This document shows, one piece after another, positions 27,686-34,871 of a stretch of 42,076 bases of DNA. The position numbers and the translations under genes are program-made. The notes beneath the pieces were generated by a model that saw only the letters and a list, made by a program, of their open reading frames with translations, was not told where the DNA came from and made no database searches. Source of the DNA: Candidatus Peregrinibacteria bacterium (lineage in GTDB: Bacteria; Patescibacteriota; Gracilibacteria; Peribacterales; Peribacteraceae); assembly GCA_018648865.1 (NCBI GenBank), contig JABGQH010000001.1, positions 1 through 42,076 of the forward strand, read 5' to 3'. Position 1 is the stretch's first letter. Each line of letters begins with the position of its first letter.

Positions 27686-27803
27686 AAATTAAGTTGGTAA
27701 TAAAAGTCAGCTTATTGTACAAGACATACCAGCTTTAAAAAGCCTCTAGTCAATTTTTTAGAGAGAAATAGAATATTTAAGTGATGATTCCTAATGTTTT
27801 CGC

Positions 27804-27809
27804 TATTAT
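27804..27809 (+). promoter_or_regulatory. -10 box of serS
   Basis: TATTAT ends 8 bases before the ATG at 27818. It lies inside the longer open frame that starts at 27794, so that longer start would be upstream of the transcript. Confidence 0.5.
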
Positions 27810-27817
27810 CCAACTCG

Positions 27818-29128
27818 ATGATTGATATAGACGACCTAAGAAAACGGCCAGCCGCATACCAAGATGCTGCAACTAAAAAGGGAATTAACCTCTCTGTAGA
27901 GGAGTTCCTAGGACTAGATAAAGAAAGAAGAGATCTGCAGCAATCTGCAGATGACATGCGTGCAAAGAAAAATGAAGTAAGTAAAAAGGTGCCTGCCATG
28001 AAAGAAGATGAAAGACTCAAGGCGTTTGAAGAGATGAAGGCTCTATCTAGTGATCTAAAAGAGAAAGAGGCGATCTTAAAAGAGGTTGAATCCAAGTGGC
28101 TTAGTATTCAACTTGGCCTACCAAGTATTCCACTCGACTGTGTACCAGTAGGAAAAACAGAGGAAGACAATGTAGAAGTTCGTAAAGAAGGCGAACTACC
28201 AAAATTTGATTTTGAACCAAAGGATCACGTAACTTTGGGCGAAGAACTAGATATTTTAGATATAACAAGAGGTGTAAAAGTAAGTGGGTCACGTAGTTAT
28301 TATTTGAAAGGTGATGGAGCACGTCTTCAACATGCTCTGATTCAATACACAATAAATTCCTTGTCACAAAAGGGATGGACACTATTTAGTCCTCCTCTTA
28401 TGGCATCTTATGAATGTTTTATGGGAACAGGATTCTTCCCTGGCGTAGATCAATCCAATATTTACGCAGTAGGAGGACAAGAGCAAAAAGATGAGCAGAT
28501 TGAAAGTGACAATCTGTATTTGATTGGAACATCCGAAATCACAGTATGTAGTTATCATTCAGGCGAAACACTAAAATCTGAAACCCTACCAAGAAAATAT
28601 GCAGGGTATAGCGCATGCTTTAGAAGAGAAGCAGGAACATATGGAAAAGACACAAAGGGCTTATATCGCGTTCATCAATTCGAGAAAGTTGAGCAAGTAG
28701 TAATCTGCAAAGCAGATCAAGAGGAGTCTATGAAATTGTTTAAAGAGATTAGGAACAACGCAGAAGCCATCTTAAAAGAACTTAAGCTACCTTATCGTGT
28801 CTTAGATATTTGCACAGGAGACATGGGAAAAGGAAAAGTATTTATGCAAGACATAGAAACATGGATGCCTTCCCGTAATTCTTATGGAGAAACCCACAGC
28901 TGTAGCTACTTAGGGGATTTTCAAGCACGTAGACTCAAGCTTAAATACGAAACAGAGGATGGTAAAAAAGAATTCTGCCACACTTTAAATAACACATGTA
29001 TCGCAAGTCCTAGAATCTTGATCCCAATTATAGAAACGTATCAGAATGCAGATGGCAGCATAACTATTCCAGAGGTACTAAGACCTTATATGGGTGGGCA
29101 AGAAATTATAAAGAAACGCGTAGAATAA
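27818..29128 (+). CDS. serS: Serine-tRNA ligase
   Basis: This 436-residue class II synthetase charges tRNA-Ser. It has the N-terminal tRNA-binding coiled coil (MIDIDDLRKRPAAYQDAATKKG... to about residue 110), then the catalytic core with LIGTSEITVCSYHSGE, the motif 2 region KYAGYSACFRREAGTYGKDTKGLYRVHQFEKVEQVV, DICTGDMGKG, and motif 3 CHTLNNTCIASPRILIPIIE. The ATG at 27818 gives the usual SerRS beginning (M-x-D-I/L-x-x-L/I-R); an upstream ATG at 27794 adds an untypical MFSLLSNS and overlaps the -10 box, so it is rejected. The gene is divergent from uvrB. Confidence 0.97.
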   Translation: MIDIDDLRKRPAAYQDAATKKGINLSVEEFLGLDKERRDLQQSADDMRAKKNEVSKKVPAMKEDERLKAFEEMKALSSDLKEKEAILKEVESKWLSIQLGLPSIPLDCVPVGKTEEDNVEVRKEGELPKFDFEPKDHVTLGEELDILDITRGVKVSGSRSYYLKGDGARLQHALIQYTINSLSQKGWTLFSPPLMASYECFMGTGFFPGVDQSNIYAVGGQEQKDEQIESDNLYLIGTSEITVCSYHSGETLKSETLPRKYAGYSACFRREAGTYGKDTKGLYRVHQFEKVEQVVICKADQEESMKLFKEIRNNAEAILKELKLPYRVLDICTGDMGKGKVFMQDIETWMPSRNSYGETHSCSYLGDFQARRLKLKYETEDGKKEFCHTLNNTCIASPRILIPIIETYQNADGSITIPEVLRPYMGGQEIIKKRVE

Positions 29129-29174: not shown

Positions 29175-29240
29175 ATGATTAGTTTTTGGCTTTTTGTTGC
29201 CATTTTCTCTGCATACATGAACCCCTTTGCACTGCGATAA
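29175..29240 (+). CDS. Possible 21-residue hydrophobic peptide
   Basis: A short frame after serS would encode a 21-residue peptide, hydrophobic over most of its length (MISFWLFVAIFSAYMNPFALR). There is no clear ribosome binding site. It may be chance in T-rich DNA, or a leader peptide for the small-protein cluster that follows. Confidence 0.15.
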   Translation: MISFWLFVAIFSAYMNPFALR

Positions 29241-29288
29241 AAAGCTATACAGAATGAGTTTGCTTTTATATTTTTTCACTAATTATTT

Positions 29289-29453
29289 ATGTATTTAGAA
29301 ACAGCAGAAGGAGATATACCTATGGGATCACCAGAAAGATTGCCAGAAACAAATCGATTTAGAACTCGAGAAAAAAAGAATGAAAGCAATGTGGTTGACG
29401 ATAAGAAACAGGAAACTTCTAGAAAGGCTGCTGCCGTACTTGGAAAAAAATAA
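29289..29453 (+). CDS. Small charged protein 1 (54 or 43 residues)
   Basis: The frame encodes a highly charged peptide with no Cys and no membrane segment. ATG 29289 gives 54 residues; ATG 29322 gives 43 and is preceded by AAGGAG with an 8-base gap, one of the few clear Shine-Dalgarno sequences in the window. The shorter product is basic and polar (RFRTREKKNESNVVDDKKQ) and ends AAAVLGKK. I do not recognise a family. A strong terminator follows 25 bases after the stop, showing that a defined transcript ends here and supporting the gene. It is the first of three tiny genes between serS and a glycosyltransferase gene. Confidence 0.45.
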   Translation: MYLETAEGDIPMGSPERLPETNRFRTREKKNESNVVDDKKQETSRKAAAVLGKK

Positions 29454-29478
29454 AACTTATAAAATGTATTATTATATT

Positions 29479-29505
29479 GGAGCCGTAAGCAAAACGGCTC
29501 CTTTT
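29479..29505 (+). terminator. Rho-independent terminator after small protein 1
   Basis: GGAGCCGT (29479-29486) pairs perfectly with ACGGCTCC (29494-29501) around a 7-base loop and is followed by TTTT. Confidence 0.88.
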
Positions 29506-29581
29506 AAATTGTTTACAGAAGCCTTGCAAATCACTTTATTCTATTTGCGTATTTGCGCAAGTATGCAAATGCTAAATAGTC

Positions 29582-29639
29582 GAATGTCGAAGGTCCAAAT
29601 GTCCAATGTCTAAAAGTCTTTCGACCTTTGACCTTTGAC
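29582..29639. repeat. Degenerate 7-8 base repeat array
   Basis: Units GAATGTC, GAAGGTC, CAAATGTC, CAATGTC and TAAAAGTC are followed by inverted-sense units TTTCGACC, TTTGACC and TTTGACA. The array lies in the 330-base non-coding stretch 29454-29783, which also has a hairpin AGGGCT/AGCCCT (29678-29695) without a T run and the sequence AGGAGGAGG at 29737-29745 directly followed by ATG TGA. Confidence 0.7.
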
Positions 29640-29783
29640 AAAATTCACAACTCCAACCTACAGACAACCCCTTTTAAAGGGCTAATAAAAGCCCTCTAAA
29701 ACATAAAATAAGAACAAGCTTGCATATTATTATATTAGGAGGAGGATGTGATTTAAATCTTTATTCTTTAACTATTTTTTTTT

Positions 29784-29948
29784 ATGGAATTTCAAGGTAA
29801 TCCAGATGACAATGAAACAGATGAAGCAGGGACAGAAGGTACAGAATCAAAGGAGACTCCTGTATCTGGAACAAGAACTTCAACATCAGAACAGGTTTCG
29901 CAGACTTTTCGTGAGCCAGAGGCTGGGAATGAATCAGATTTTGAATAA
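29784..29948 (+). CDS. Small acidic protein 2 (54 residues)
   Basis: An ATG-initiated frame encodes a 54-residue, strongly acidic, Thr/Glu/Gly-rich peptide with no Cys or hydrophobic core (for example NPDDNETDEAGTEGTESK and an end EPEAGNESDFE). It is probably disordered. It has no recognised family. Its upstream sequence, TTTAACTATTTTTTTT before ATGG, is closely similar to that of the next small gene, which argues that both are real and related in expression. There is no Shine-Dalgarno sequence next to the start; a U-rich leader is present instead. Confidence 0.5.
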   Translation: MEFQGNPDDNETDEAGTEGTESKETPVSGTRTSTSEQVSQTFREPEAGNESDFE

Positions 29949-29987
29949 ATTTATATTTTATATCATTATTATTTAACCATTTTTTCT

Positions 29988-30143
29988 ATGGCAATAGGGG
30001 AACCACAGGAAATTACAGGAAATGAAGCTGATGAAGTAGTATTCGAAGAGCCAGTCCATCCAGAATCAGATAGAATCAAAGAATTATTGGCAAAGGGAGG
30101 AGATTCTGTCTATGACATTCTTGGACCAGAAATTTTAGAATAA
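29988..30143 (+). CDS. Small acidic protein 3 (51 residues)
   Basis: The frame encodes a 51-residue acidic peptide (EVVFEEPVHPESDRIKELLAKGGDSVYDILGPEILE) with a possible amphipathic helix in the middle. No family is recognised. The leader, TTTAACCATTTTTTCT before ATGG, matches that of small protein 2. A strong terminator follows 21 bases after the stop, closing the cluster. Function is unknown; small disordered acidic proteins may be regulators, chaperone clients or phage-derived inhibitors, none of which the sequence decides. Confidence 0.5.
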   Translation: MAIGEPQEITGNEADEVVFEEPVHPESDRIKELLAKGGDSVYDILGPEILE

Positions 30144-30164
30144 ATCCATTTTATAAACTTAATT

Positions 30165-30191
30165 AGGAGCTACTTCTATGTAGCTCCTTTT
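30165..30191 (+). terminator. Rho-independent terminator after small protein 3
   Basis: AGGAGCTAC (30165-30173) pairs perfectly with GTAGCTCCT (30180-30188) around a 6-base loop, followed by TTT. Confidence 0.9.
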
Positions 30192-30236: not shown

Positions 30237-31352
30237 ATGAAAATCTTGTTTACACGTTTTCCTTACGAAAGTACGCATGGTGGTGCAGAGGTTCAAACTA
30301 TTTCACTAATGACAGAGTTTAAGAAGCGTGGACACAATGTAGCTTTTTTGGGTAGCTGCCCAACTCTACTCGTAATGTGTGAGCAGTTTAATATTCCGTC
30401 TCTGTCTTTAAAGATAGGTCGTCCGCCAGTTAGCAAATGGACATTAATTACGTTCTTTTTTAGAAAAAGAAAAATGAAAAAGAAATTAGAAAAATCTTTT
30501 CATCATTTCTTTCAGCATGGATTAGAGGCAGTCTGCATGATGAGTCTTTCAGAGAAGCTACTGCTAACTCCATATGCAATAAAAGCTGGAATGAAGGTAA
30601 TTTGGATAGAGCACGACAGTATTGGTAAATGGCTTACACTGAATCCATTTTTGAGGAGGCTCGTAAAATTGAGTAAAAATGTAAAAACTATATGTGTATC
30701 AGAATTAAGCAGATCTAAATATATTAAACTCGGATGGGATCCAAAAACTGTTATTGCGATTCCTAATGGAATTGATCCAACTCGATTTGAGAAAGGGAAG
30801 AAACAATCAGCTAAAAAAGTAAATGAATCAAAGCCTATACAGATAGGTGCTGTCGCTCGCCTAGATCATGAAAAGGGATTAGATATTTTAATTAAATCTA
30901 TGGAGGAATTACCAAATGCAGAACTAACGATTGTAGGTGTAGGAGATCAAGAAAAATATTTGCAAAGCCTAATAAAAAAAGTTGGTATATCTGATCGTGC
31001 TAGCATTATTAGAAGGATTGGAAAATTAGGAGATTTTTATGAGTCCATTGATATTTTTGTTCTTCCTTCTCGCTCTCACGATCCATTTGGGCTAGTCGCT
31101 GCAGAGGCTATGTGTGTTGGCACTCCTGTAGTCGTTACAGACGCCTGTGGTATAGCCAGTGAGCTTAAGCAGGGTAAGAATGCACTAATTGTAAAGGCTG
31201 GGTCAGAGAAGGAGCTTAAAAGCTCTATTTCCGCTTTAACAGATAATAAAAAGACTCGGCTATCTATCGGCAAAGAGGGCAAAAAGAAAGCCCTTAAAGA
31301 CTTCACAATCAAAAGCATGGTAGATAATTACGAATCATTACTACTTAAATAG
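30237..31352 (+). CDS. Glycosyltransferase family 4 (GT-B fold)
   Basis: The 371-residue cytosolic or membrane-associated enzyme has the GT4 layout. The N-terminal acceptor half starts MKILFTRFPYESTHGGAEVQTISL with the glycine-rich GGAE loop. After the linker VIAIPNGIDPTRF come the C-terminal donor half with GAVARLDHEKGLDILIKSM, and the E-x7-E-type motif in FVLPSRSHDPFGLVAAEAMCVGTPVVVTDACGIASEL (about residues 274-310). Such retaining enzymes add a sugar from a nucleotide donor to lipid-linked glycans or other acceptors; the acceptor is not predictable. It is 19 bases upstream of the amidase gene, but that gene has its own -10 box. Confidence 0.88.
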   Translation: MKILFTRFPYESTHGGAEVQTISLMTEFKKRGHNVAFLGSCPTLLVMCEQFNIPSLSLKIGRPPVSKWTLITFFFRKRKMKKKLEKSFHHFFQHGLEAVCMMSLSEKLLLTPYAIKAGMKVIWIEHDSIGKWLTLNPFLRRLVKLSKNVKTICVSELSRSKYIKLGWDPKTVIAIPNGIDPTRFEKGKKQSAKKVNESKPIQIGAVARLDHEKGLDILIKSMEELPNAELTIVGVGDQEKYLQSLIKKVGISDRASIIRRIGKLGDFYESIDIFVLPSRSHDPFGLVAAEAMCVGTPVVVTDACGIASELKQGKNALIVKAGSEKELKSSISALTDNKKTRLSIGKEGKKKALKDFTIKSMVDNYESLLLK

Positions 31353-31370: not shown

Positions 31371-33551
31371 ATGAAAAAGCTGGTTCGTAATTTTGTTCTC
31401 GGCTCGTTGGTAATCACATTTTTTGGTGCGCAAACTGCCAATGCAGCGCAGTCCTTTAGAGTTATTTCTCGTCGCAGTTGGGGTGCAGATGATTCTCTTC
31501 TTTTTAGAACTACTGCTTCTGCTCCTTCTAGCTCTACAACAAGTTCCAGCACATCTAATATTAGTGATGCTACTAGGAAAAGAATAAATGAATGCAATGA
31601 GGCACAAGAAAACTATCCTAATGACTTTAAGCCAAAGAACACAGTAAGTAGCTTTGGTGGCAAAAATTTGAGGTGGCCCAGAAGGTATTCTGAAAGTGTA
31701 AAACAAATAGTTTTGCATCACACTGCAATGGAGGTTAGAAATGACGGCAGAAGTGGTAAAGAAAAAATGCAAGCGCTATATACATATCACGCAGATAAGC
31801 TTGGATGGGGAGACATCGGATATAACTATGTAATAGATGAGGACGGAAATGTGTATGAAGGAAGAAGTGGGGGAGAATTTGTAGTTGCAGGCCATGCCTA
31901 TTGTCATAATGTTGGGACAATTGGAATCGCACTAATGGGTAATTTTGAAATAGAAAAACCAACCCATAAACAAACTGTAGCCCTGCGAAAACTGCTTGAT
32001 TCACTTACAAATACTTACAGAATAAATCCTACTGGAACTGTAGTTCGCCATGGCAAGCGTGTGCCAACAATTGTTGGTCATGGTGATTTACTTTCTACCC
32101 TTTGCCCTGGCTTTATGATGCAAAGTGTAGCCAGCACTTTACGAATAATGGTTAAAAATAAAGATTTTACTTCTAGTATTGTTTTCCCTTCTTTGCCTAG
32201 TAAAAGAAGAGTAAGTAGCACAGCAGATAGGCGCAGCGAACGCATGAAGAATCGTGGAATAACCACTCCAGTTAAGGAGCTATCACCTGTAGACACTACA
32301 GAATTTGTTGGTAGGCCTGGGGGATTTGTTCTTACATCTATACGGTTCACTGCATTACGTAAATATAACAGCAGAGAGCGTATTGCTACTGTTAAAAGGT
32401 CAAATACCCGTATAGGAATCTGGCAAGGCTCTGGCGACAATTCTGTGCGTGTGCGCAATGAAATTGTTATACCTAATACTATTAATCCTGGTAGCTCAGT
32501 TTCTATTCCTATTCGCTTCCAATTACCTAGGGAAGAAGGTGTTTACACTGTAGATATAGGAGACAGCACCTATATTTTGAAAGCGGAAGGTAGAAGAGCT
32601 CGATCAGAAAGATCTGCAACCTCCTTTCAAACATTTTCTACCCAAACTAGAGAAAATACTCAAACACCTGGATACCGCAGAGCTCAAGCTAGAGAGATTC
32701 TACAAAGAGAGAGAAGCCCATCTGCAACCAACACTCCAACTGGATCCACAGCTTCTGCTCCTACAAAAGGGATTCGTATAAGACTTGAGTTTGACGGTAG
32801 AAACTTGCAGATATCTAATAATGAAGGAGTGTTCTACCTAAATAAAGAAGGTAGCCAATGTGTATTAAGAAAAGCAGGATCAATTGTTCAGTCAGGAATC
32901 GTTCGAATAGGAACAAGTGGTTCTATTAATACAATTAGTAATTGGGGATCATCATTTAATAAATTTAGAGGAGTACTAGAGTGCCAAGTATTGAACGGAG
33001 AATTAACCATAATTAATGAACTCAGTCTAGAAAACTACATGGCAGGCCTTGCAGAAGAGCCAGATACAGAACACTTCCAAAAACAAAGAGCATTTTCAAT
33101 CGCTGCACGTAGTTACGCAGCCTTTTATATGAATGCGAAAGGTACAAATAGAAAATTCCAATCTATGCCATACGATGGAAGTGATAGCCCAGCTTCGTTT
33201 CAAATTTATAGAGGTTATGTATTTGAAAAACAAAATCCTAGTTGGGCAAAAGCAGTTAGAGACACAGCTAATAAAATAATTACCAAGAATGGAGAAATTG
33301 TGAAGGCTGCATATTTTTCTAGTAGTGATGGCAGAACCAGAAGTCCCGCAGAAAATGGATGGAACAACTTTCCATTTGCAGAAGTCTTTGTAAGCAAGCC
33401 AGATCCTTGGTGCTCAGGACTACCACTGCGCGGACATGGCGTAGGCATGTCCGGATGTGGCGCATCCGCTCAAGCTGAGGAGGGCAAGACTGCAGAAGAG
33501 ATTCTGCGTTATTACTACACAGGAACTAAGATAGCTTCCCTACAGCATTAA
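31371..33551 (+). CDS. N-acetylmuramoyl-L-alanine amidase fused to a SpoIID-like domain
   Basis: This 726-residue exported protein has a signal peptide ([25 protein letters not shown]). An amidase_2/PGRP domain follows (about 95-260): [13 protein letters not shown] with the first zinc His, [21 protein letters not shown], and [13 protein letters not shown] with the His and Cys ligands. A middle region (about 300-455) includes a beta-rich part and a Ser/Thr/Arg-rich linker. The C-terminal SpoIID domain (about 465-726) has [43 protein letters not shown] and [31 protein letters not shown]. SpoIID cuts glycan strands already stripped of peptides, which the amidase would produce, so the fusion may carry out both steps. 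Its 3' end overlaps the convergent metK gene by 26 bases. Confidence 0.88.
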
Positions 33552-34671
33552 CTAGGTCATCAACCTTGTCTTTTCTTTCCCATGTGAATTCTGGTTCTTC
33601 TCTTCCAAAGTGACCATAACATGCAGTCTTTTTGTAGATAGGACGTTGTAGATCTAGATGATCAATGATTCCTCTTGGTGTTAGGTCGAACTGATCACGA
33701 ATCAATTTAGTTAATACGCTGTCATCTACTTTTCCTGTTCCATTTGTTCTAACATATATAGAAACAGGCTCTGCAACACCAATGGCATATGCAAGTTGTA
33801 TCTCACATTCATCTGCCAAGTCTGCGGCAACAATATTCTTTGCAATGTATCTAGCCATATATGCAGCAGATCTATCAACTTTCATAGGTTCTTTACCAGA
33901 GAAAGCTCCACCTCCTACTGCAATGTATCCTCCGTAACTATCTACAATAATTTTTCTTCCAGTCATTCCTGCATCTGCTACTGGACCCCCTGTAACAAAC
34001 TTACCTGTTGGGTTAACGTGGAAAATTGTATCTGCATCTATGCGATCACCTAGTACTGGACGAATAATATTATTAATACAATCCTGCTTAAGTTGTTCGT
34101 GCTCTATGTCTTCATTGTGTTGTGTAGAGAACACTACAGCCTGTACTCGTTTAGGAGTAAATGGATCTGCGTACTCTACAGTTACTTGGCATTTTCCATC
34201 TGGTCGTAGATATGGAATTGTTCCAGCCCTACGTACTTCTGCTGCTTTTTTAGAAAGATCATGTGCCAATTGGATTGGTAAGGGCATCAATTCTGGTGTC
34301 TGCTTACATGCGAATCCAACCATCAATCCTTGATCTCCTGCTCCTCCTGTATCTACACCCTGAGCTATATCTGGGCTCTGTTTATCGATGGAGACTAAAA
34401 CAGCACATGTTCTGTACTCAAACCCAAAGTTTGGATCTGTGTATCCGATATCTCTAATTACATCTCGTGCTACTTGAGCCACATCTACATATGTAGAAGT
34501 TGTAATTTCCCCTGCGATTAGCACAAGACCAGTAGTAACAAATGTTTCGCATCCACTACGGCAGTGTGGATCATCTTTTAACATTTCATCTAATACTGCA
34601 TCGCTAATTTGATCGGCAATTTTATCTGGGTGCCCTTCGAAAACTGATTCGGATGTAAATAAATGAGACAT
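33526..34671 (-). CDS. metK: S-adenosylmethionine synthase
   Basis: The 381-residue enzyme makes SAM from methionine and ATP. It has the conserved start [51 protein letters not shown], the hexapeptide signature [13 protein letters not shown] (here in [16 protein letters not shown]), and the P-loop-like [31 protein letters not shown]. Length matches the bacterial family. Upstream on the same strand lies a SAM-I-like riboswitch (34745-34854), so SAM probably represses its own synthesis. GGAGGAG is present in the leader about 35 bases before the ATG, too far to act as its Shine-Dalgarno sequence directly. The 3' end overlaps the amidase gene by 26 bases, convergent. Confidence 0.97.
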
Positions 34672-34744
34672 GAATAGGTTAGGAATGTAAGTAATTAAAC
34701 AAAGCTCTCCTCCAGAGGTTGGAAGAACAATTTAATAATTTTAA

Positions 34745-34854
34745 ATCTATCTTCCCTTATCGGGGCTGGATTTCCCACTTACTTAGATCTTTTGAATCTA
34801 AGAGTTGGGGGGTGCTTCACTGGGCCAGTTCCCTCTGCACCTCTCTAAATAGAA
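34745..34854 (-). ncRNA. SAM-I-type (S-box) riboswitch upstream of metK
   Basis: On the minus strand the leader carries the S-box core in order: AGAGAGGTGCAGAGGGA, then CTGGCCC-AGTGAAGC, CCCCCCAAC, a variable hairpin (ACTTAGATC region), AATCCAGCCCCGA and GGGAAGATAGA. P1 is closed by TCTAT (34849-34853 complement) with ATAGA (34746-34750 complement). These agree with the S-box consensus GAGG...GGCCC.ATGAA...CGGCAACC...AATTCC.GC...GAAAGAT. The position directly before metK fits known biology. The expression platform is unclear: no terminator with a T run is seen, and the GGAGGAG further down may be involved in translational control. Confidence 0.85.
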
Positions 34855-34871
34855 CTGTGGTGTACGCAGAC

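Follow-up and report, generated by a model that had tools for sequence, protein, structure and literature searches.

The stretch of DNA analysed here (the window, 42,076 nt) belongs to contig C6 of a 1.13-Mb Peribacteraceae MAG, whose closest named relatives are Candidatus Peribacteria/Peregrinibacteria MAGs. The seryl-tRNA synthetase gene serS (27794..29128, + strand; 58–77% identity to Peribacteraceae serS) and a gene for a GT4-type glycosyltransferase (30237..31352, + strand; matched in relatives) delimit a gap that contains three short frames on the same strand, as had been reported in the preliminary description. The first of them, orf1 (29289..29453; 54 aa, or 43 aa from the ATG at 29322), begins 160 nt past the serS stop codon and is followed by orf2 (29784..29948; 54 aa) and orf3 (29988..30143; 51 aa). 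A terminator-like hairpin with a perfect 8-bp stem and a T-rich but short tail closes orf1 (29479..29501, + strand), and a second one, read directly from the sequence, with a perfect 9-bp stem and a short T tail, closes the orf2–orf3 pair (30165..30188, + strand). Rfam matches in the window comprised one tRNA and one SAM riboswitch and nothing else; the riboswitch (34744-34855, - strand) is located upstream of a - strand gene (33526-34671) recognized by eye as that of S-adenosylmethionine synthetase.

The serS–GT4 gap is a spot of variable cargo. The gene order serS–GT4–PGRP is kept across the family, the GT4 gene being present in 65 of 74 family genomes (E ≤ 1e-60) and downstream of serS in most of them, and the content of the gap varies. 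In G001, the only same-genus genome compared (75% complete), the gap is 133 nt long and lacks orf1–3, and in several other family genomes it measures from a few to 100 nt. Elsewhere the spot is filled with receiver-domain genes (PF00072), a P-loop-like gene, a gene for a four-helix protein or a MazF-like pair. A pair encoding a 131-aa P-loop-like protein that matches nothing in Pfam, together with a single-domain receiver (PF00072), recurs between serS and GT4 (L121:5814-6589, L132, L142 and others) and is absent from the window genome. Between orf1 and orf2 we also noticed a short-period quasi-palindromic repeat (29579..29639, read from the sequence). Repeats of this kind occur between genes in L120, L090, L076 and L074, similar elements are found in other serS–GT4 gaps, and their theme differs from genome to genome (e.g., GTAGAATGTAGAATGTAAAATG...CATTTTACATTCTACATT); in a rough screen of the window's own genome 26 scan segments passed, some of which are coding or represent other repeat types.

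Codon composition clearly sets the three frames apart from the surrounding non-coding DNA. When 282 small intergenic ORFs from 400 kb of the organism's own genome were ranked under a codon model trained on that genome, orf2 came first, orf3 second and orf1 eighth, and the scores exceeded those of dinucleotide shuffles with z of 5.2, 4.6 and 3.4, respectively (p ≤ 0.001; the score of orf1 was 0.28). The gap harbors five + strand ATG-initiated ORFs of at least 50 aa, as compared with 0.34 expected from dinucleotide shuffles; these are orf1–3 and two overlapping frames of 77 and 56 aa, both with a negative coding score. Since the shuffled sequences score lower and the overlapping frames are negative, the richness in purines alone is insufficient to account for the coding scores. 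We conclude that orf1, orf2 and orf3 are almost certainly genuine protein-coding genes.

These genes belong to no family known to us, as the preliminary description had stated: no Pfam, NCBIfam, PHROG or PADLOC family was matched by any of them above the library threshold. Direct sequence search with orf1–3 in 74 family genomes revealed no homologue, nor did orf3 have one in the GTDB representatives; neither orf2 nor orf3 had a match in IMG/VR, and none of the three matched phage records. As a side observation, a 56-aa protein encoded at L104:7467-7637 (- strand) displayed weak similarity to the histone fold (PF00808, E 0.0026, under the curated cut-off) and is possibly a bacterial histone. 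Absence of conservation in close relatives, originally proposed as a refutation of the three genes, was indeed what we observed as far as detectable sequence is concerned, both in the 74 family genomes and at the locus in G001. We do not count it as a refutation, given that the opposite is indicated by codon composition and, in the case of orf1, also by synteny and a common block upstream.

The position of orf1 is occupied by a small gene in other members of the family as well. Among 55 distinct serS 3' flanks, some truncated and a few from outside the family, seven flanks from five genera (L121, L122, L125, L132, L133, L142 and L146) contain, right after serS, a small, mostly acidic ORF with no signal sequence. 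Like orf1, these ORFs directly follow serS and have no Shine-Dalgarno (SD) sequence, and most of them share the upstream block described below; they are 63–78 aa long and mostly disordered by charge-hydropathy, but their protein sequences, unlike these features, are scarcely alignable with that of orf1. In the homologous pair L142/L125 the differences were distributed over the codon positions as 27/19/38, with dN of 0.40 and dS of 2.4 (saturated); since dN is below dS and the differences are so distributed, a coding gene under purifying selection does exist at the serS-adjacent position. The proteins of L132, L146 and L133 are mutually related and have in common a C-terminal WYxxHGxxD motif, which is absent from orf1, orf2 and orf3. 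Profiles built from the serS-adjacent proteins (A1 and A2), among them one of the L132, L146 and L133 proteins, retrieved their own members only, plus one weak match each, and a relationship of orf3 to the L133 protein was rejected, the two giving no alignment.

At the protein level orf1 displayed weak N-terminal similarity to the L121 and L132 products (shuffle p 0.003–0.01, uncorrected for the many pairs compared), and BLASTP aligned it to one serS-adjacent protein with an E value of 0.018 over 9 residues, a likeness noticed prior to testing. The DNA upstream provided a further link. A MAFFT alignment of the regions between serS and the small ORF yielded the consensus GAAM-N4-TTGC-N18-CARNNT, which in the window takes the form GAAC-N4-TTGCAC-N17-CAGAAT (29219..29255, + strand), 70 nt before the orf1 ATG. 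With a leave-one-out PWM the orf1 block ranked first of 254 positions (shuffle p about 0.003), and the block was the best position with p ≤ 0.01 in six of the eight regions (the window, L142, L125, L122, L132 and L146), these p values being somewhat optimistic because the blocks were cut from an alignment containing each tested sequence; in L121 and L133 the leave-one-out test was not significant. The distance from block to ATG is 66–70 nt in six of the eight regions, and this spacing suggests that the block is probably a promoter. A structured RNA upstream of orf1 was rejected, as the consensus fold of the alignment contained no pairs, and so was a genome-wide regulon based on the 37-nt block, for which no convincing further sites were found.

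Considering the same position, the shared upstream block and the weak N-terminal similarity, we regard orf1 as probably an ortholog of the serS-adjacent small gene; among the three genes it is the only one with likely orthologs elsewhere, orf2 and orf3 having no counterpart among the serS-adjacent small ORFs of other Peribacteraceae. The comparison also bears on the translation start. Both orf1, when read from the ATG at 29289, and the L132 protein begin with MYL-ET, for which reason this ATG is preferred to that at 29322 and the 54-aa form is the likely one. With this start, the pET-like 'SD' AGAAGGAGATATACC in front of the 43-aa version would be coding sequence, located in frame within the 54-aa orf1 and encoding A-E-G-D-I-P.

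The GAAC-N4-TTGCA core of the block occurs once more in the gap, as GAACAAGCTTGCA (29712..29724, + strand; motif match), 72 nt before the orf2 ATG, and the remainder of the 37-nt block has no match upstream of orf2. Of the 12 matches to GAAC-N4-TTGCA in the whole genome, none but the two in the serS–GT4 gap (70 nt from orf1 and 72 nt from orf2) stand within a gap and 70–72 nt ahead of a small ORF; as the motif was chosen after inspecting orf1 and L142, the orf2 copy makes a partial test only. One may tentatively envisage, as a possibility that we consider rather doubtful, that Peribacteraceae have a dedicated small-protein gene directly after serS in which the control block has been conserved better than the largely disordered product, and which has here been expanded to three genes, two of them sharing GAAC-N4-TTGCA.

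The opposite possibility is that orf1–3 form an islet of orphan cargo, all three being recently acquired or of de novo origin and unrelated to the serS-adjacent genes elsewhere. The 133-nt empty spot of the same-genus genome, the lack of detectable homologues and the unrelated cargo of other genomes (receiver, P-loop-like and four-helix proteins, the MazF-like pair) would all be expected under this explanation; the upstream block common to orf1 and the serS-adjacent genes, as well as the orf1 protein similarity, speak against it, and we find it fairly improbable. The reading that we favor, and hold to be probably correct as a whole, is that three genuine genes occupy a variable spot, with orf1 as the local version of the serS-adjacent gene and orf2–orf3 as a lineage-restricted second transcript.

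According to this favored reading, orf1 would be the local version of a fast-diverging small gene that recurs after serS in several genera; its expression would be driven by a conserved block of its own upstream, the probable promoter, with transcription ending at the first hairpin, and the lineage-restricted orf2 and orf3 would share another transcript, terminated at the second hairpin. These transcript boundaries and the expression are inferred. One functional system comprising all three genes is no more than a possibility, as orf1 has its own hairpin and is alone in having likely orthologs elsewhere, while orf2–orf3 form a second unit. The hairpins had been taken for perfect terminators: their stems are perfect, but the T tails are short, and a consensus terminator scan accepted the 30165-30188 hairpin on the - strand only.

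Translation of the three genes would start without SD pairing, as elsewhere in the window genome. The leaders of orf2 (TTTAACTATTTTTTTTT, 29767..29783, + strand) and orf3 (TTTAACCATTTTTTCT, 29972..29987, + strand), both read from the sequence, are nearly identical (TTTAAC, T or C, ATTTTTT, then ATGG) and have no SD sequence, just as had been pointed out; that of orf2 is of the type found throughout the genome. An SD motif stands before 3 of 505 genes examined in this organism, as compared with 3.4 expected from shuffling, and the upstream regions are enriched in TTTCC/TTCCC/TTCCT (54 vs 30 expected) and in TANNNT ending 4–9 nt before the ATG (237 vs 126). Leaders in this genome are as a rule pyrimidine-rich or -10-adjacent. 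The 3' end of its 16S rRNA (G000:C9:175463-175487) reads TGGAACACTTCCTTAC instead of the usual TGGATCACCTCCTT, with CTTCC in the anti-SD position where CCTCC is usual, and of the 62 family genomes in which a 16S tail was detected, nearly all have CTTCC, TCTCC or TTTCC. Candidatus Peribacter riflensis was previously listed among SD-scarce organisms without CCUCC (PMC10783764), and joint loss of the SD and anti-SD signals is a general pattern (PMC6107228). The window genome resembles those organisms in the loss of SD and the degenerate 16S tail; the reports concern the start of translation in general and not orf1–3, and the observation is extended here to 62 family genomes, a family-wide extent of anti-SD degeneracy in Peribacteraceae that we did not find described in the literature searched. 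As a special leader motif, TTTAAC...ATTTTTT was rejected: with up to 2 mismatches it had 10 matches genome-wide vs 3 for the reversed control, most of them away from start codons. Being a genome-wide property, a U-rich leader without SD says nothing about a special system. The proposal of an undescribed small-protein system is supported as regards real small-protein genes, by coding statistics, and unsupported as regards the idea that the shared U-rich leader and the missing SD define a system.

The products are mostly disordered by charge-hydropathy, in line with the first impression of them, and their sequences contain neither signal peptides nor transmembrane segments. They had been called acidic or highly charged; orf2 and orf3 are indeed acidic (pI 4.1 each), whereas orf1 is not, being slightly basic with a pI of 9.2. 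A single-sequence AlphaFold2 model of orf3 (mean pLDDT 75, pTM 0.24), which we treat as weak evidence for its fold, predicts an extended N-terminal half and short C-terminal helices at residues 25–35 and 41–50. Since the proteins are largely disordered and have no signal peptide or transmembrane segment, our best guess is that they are small cytosolic binding or regulatory proteins, which may act via short segments, the C-terminal helices of orf3 being an example.

Two small genes lying side by side in a cargo spot might also suggest a toxin-antitoxin or other conflict module made up of orf2 and orf3, and in the same spot of L190 (G052) a Phd-like and MazF-like toxin-antitoxin pair was identified by eye. 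However, both products are acidic, with at least half of the chain disordered; neither resembles a toxin or matches PADLOC, Pfam or PHROG, which makes such a module quite unlikely. About as improbable are regulatory leader ORFs translated only to control the hairpins that stand close behind orf1 and orf3, with orf3, for instance, attenuating GT4: the codon composition is that of genuine genes across the full length, there is no residue-rich run of regulatory codons, and GT4 has its own -10-like sequence beside the ATG (noted by eye) and stands behind different genes in relatives. Chance ORFs within purine-rich non-coding DNA would agree with the missing sequence conservation, yet composition-preserving shuffles fail to give such scores (p ≤ 0.001), and we consider this explanation just as improbable as the preceding one. 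Ubiquitin-like modifiers of the Pup/UBact kind, likewise small, disordered and acidic, can practically be dismissed, as the Pup ligase (PF03136) is absent from the genome, with a matching C. glutamicum positive control, and the C termini of orf1, orf2 and orf3 (LGKK, SDFE and EILE) have no GG-Q/E ending.

Taken together, orf1–3 are real genes, ordinary in kind and undescribed in sequence, small in size, restricted to their lineage and located at a variable locus; orf1 is probably a long-standing resident there that diverges fast and has a conserved control block. They are the same kind of object as the short, taxonomically restricted coding sequences from uncultivated bacteria collected in the GMSC small-ORF catalogue (PMC11364881), and they resemble, in kind only, the FESNov families (PMC10849945), restricted coding sequences of uncultivated bacteria with no functional annotation. 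An over-readable clue is thereby corrected: in a lineage with a decayed 16S anti-SD, a U-rich leader lacking SD is what one normally finds. Even when sequence search fails, very short family-less genes of Peribacteraceae can be recognized from their codon composition, their position and the block upstream of them; annotation leaning on SD sequences or homology would miss such genes or pick the wrong start.
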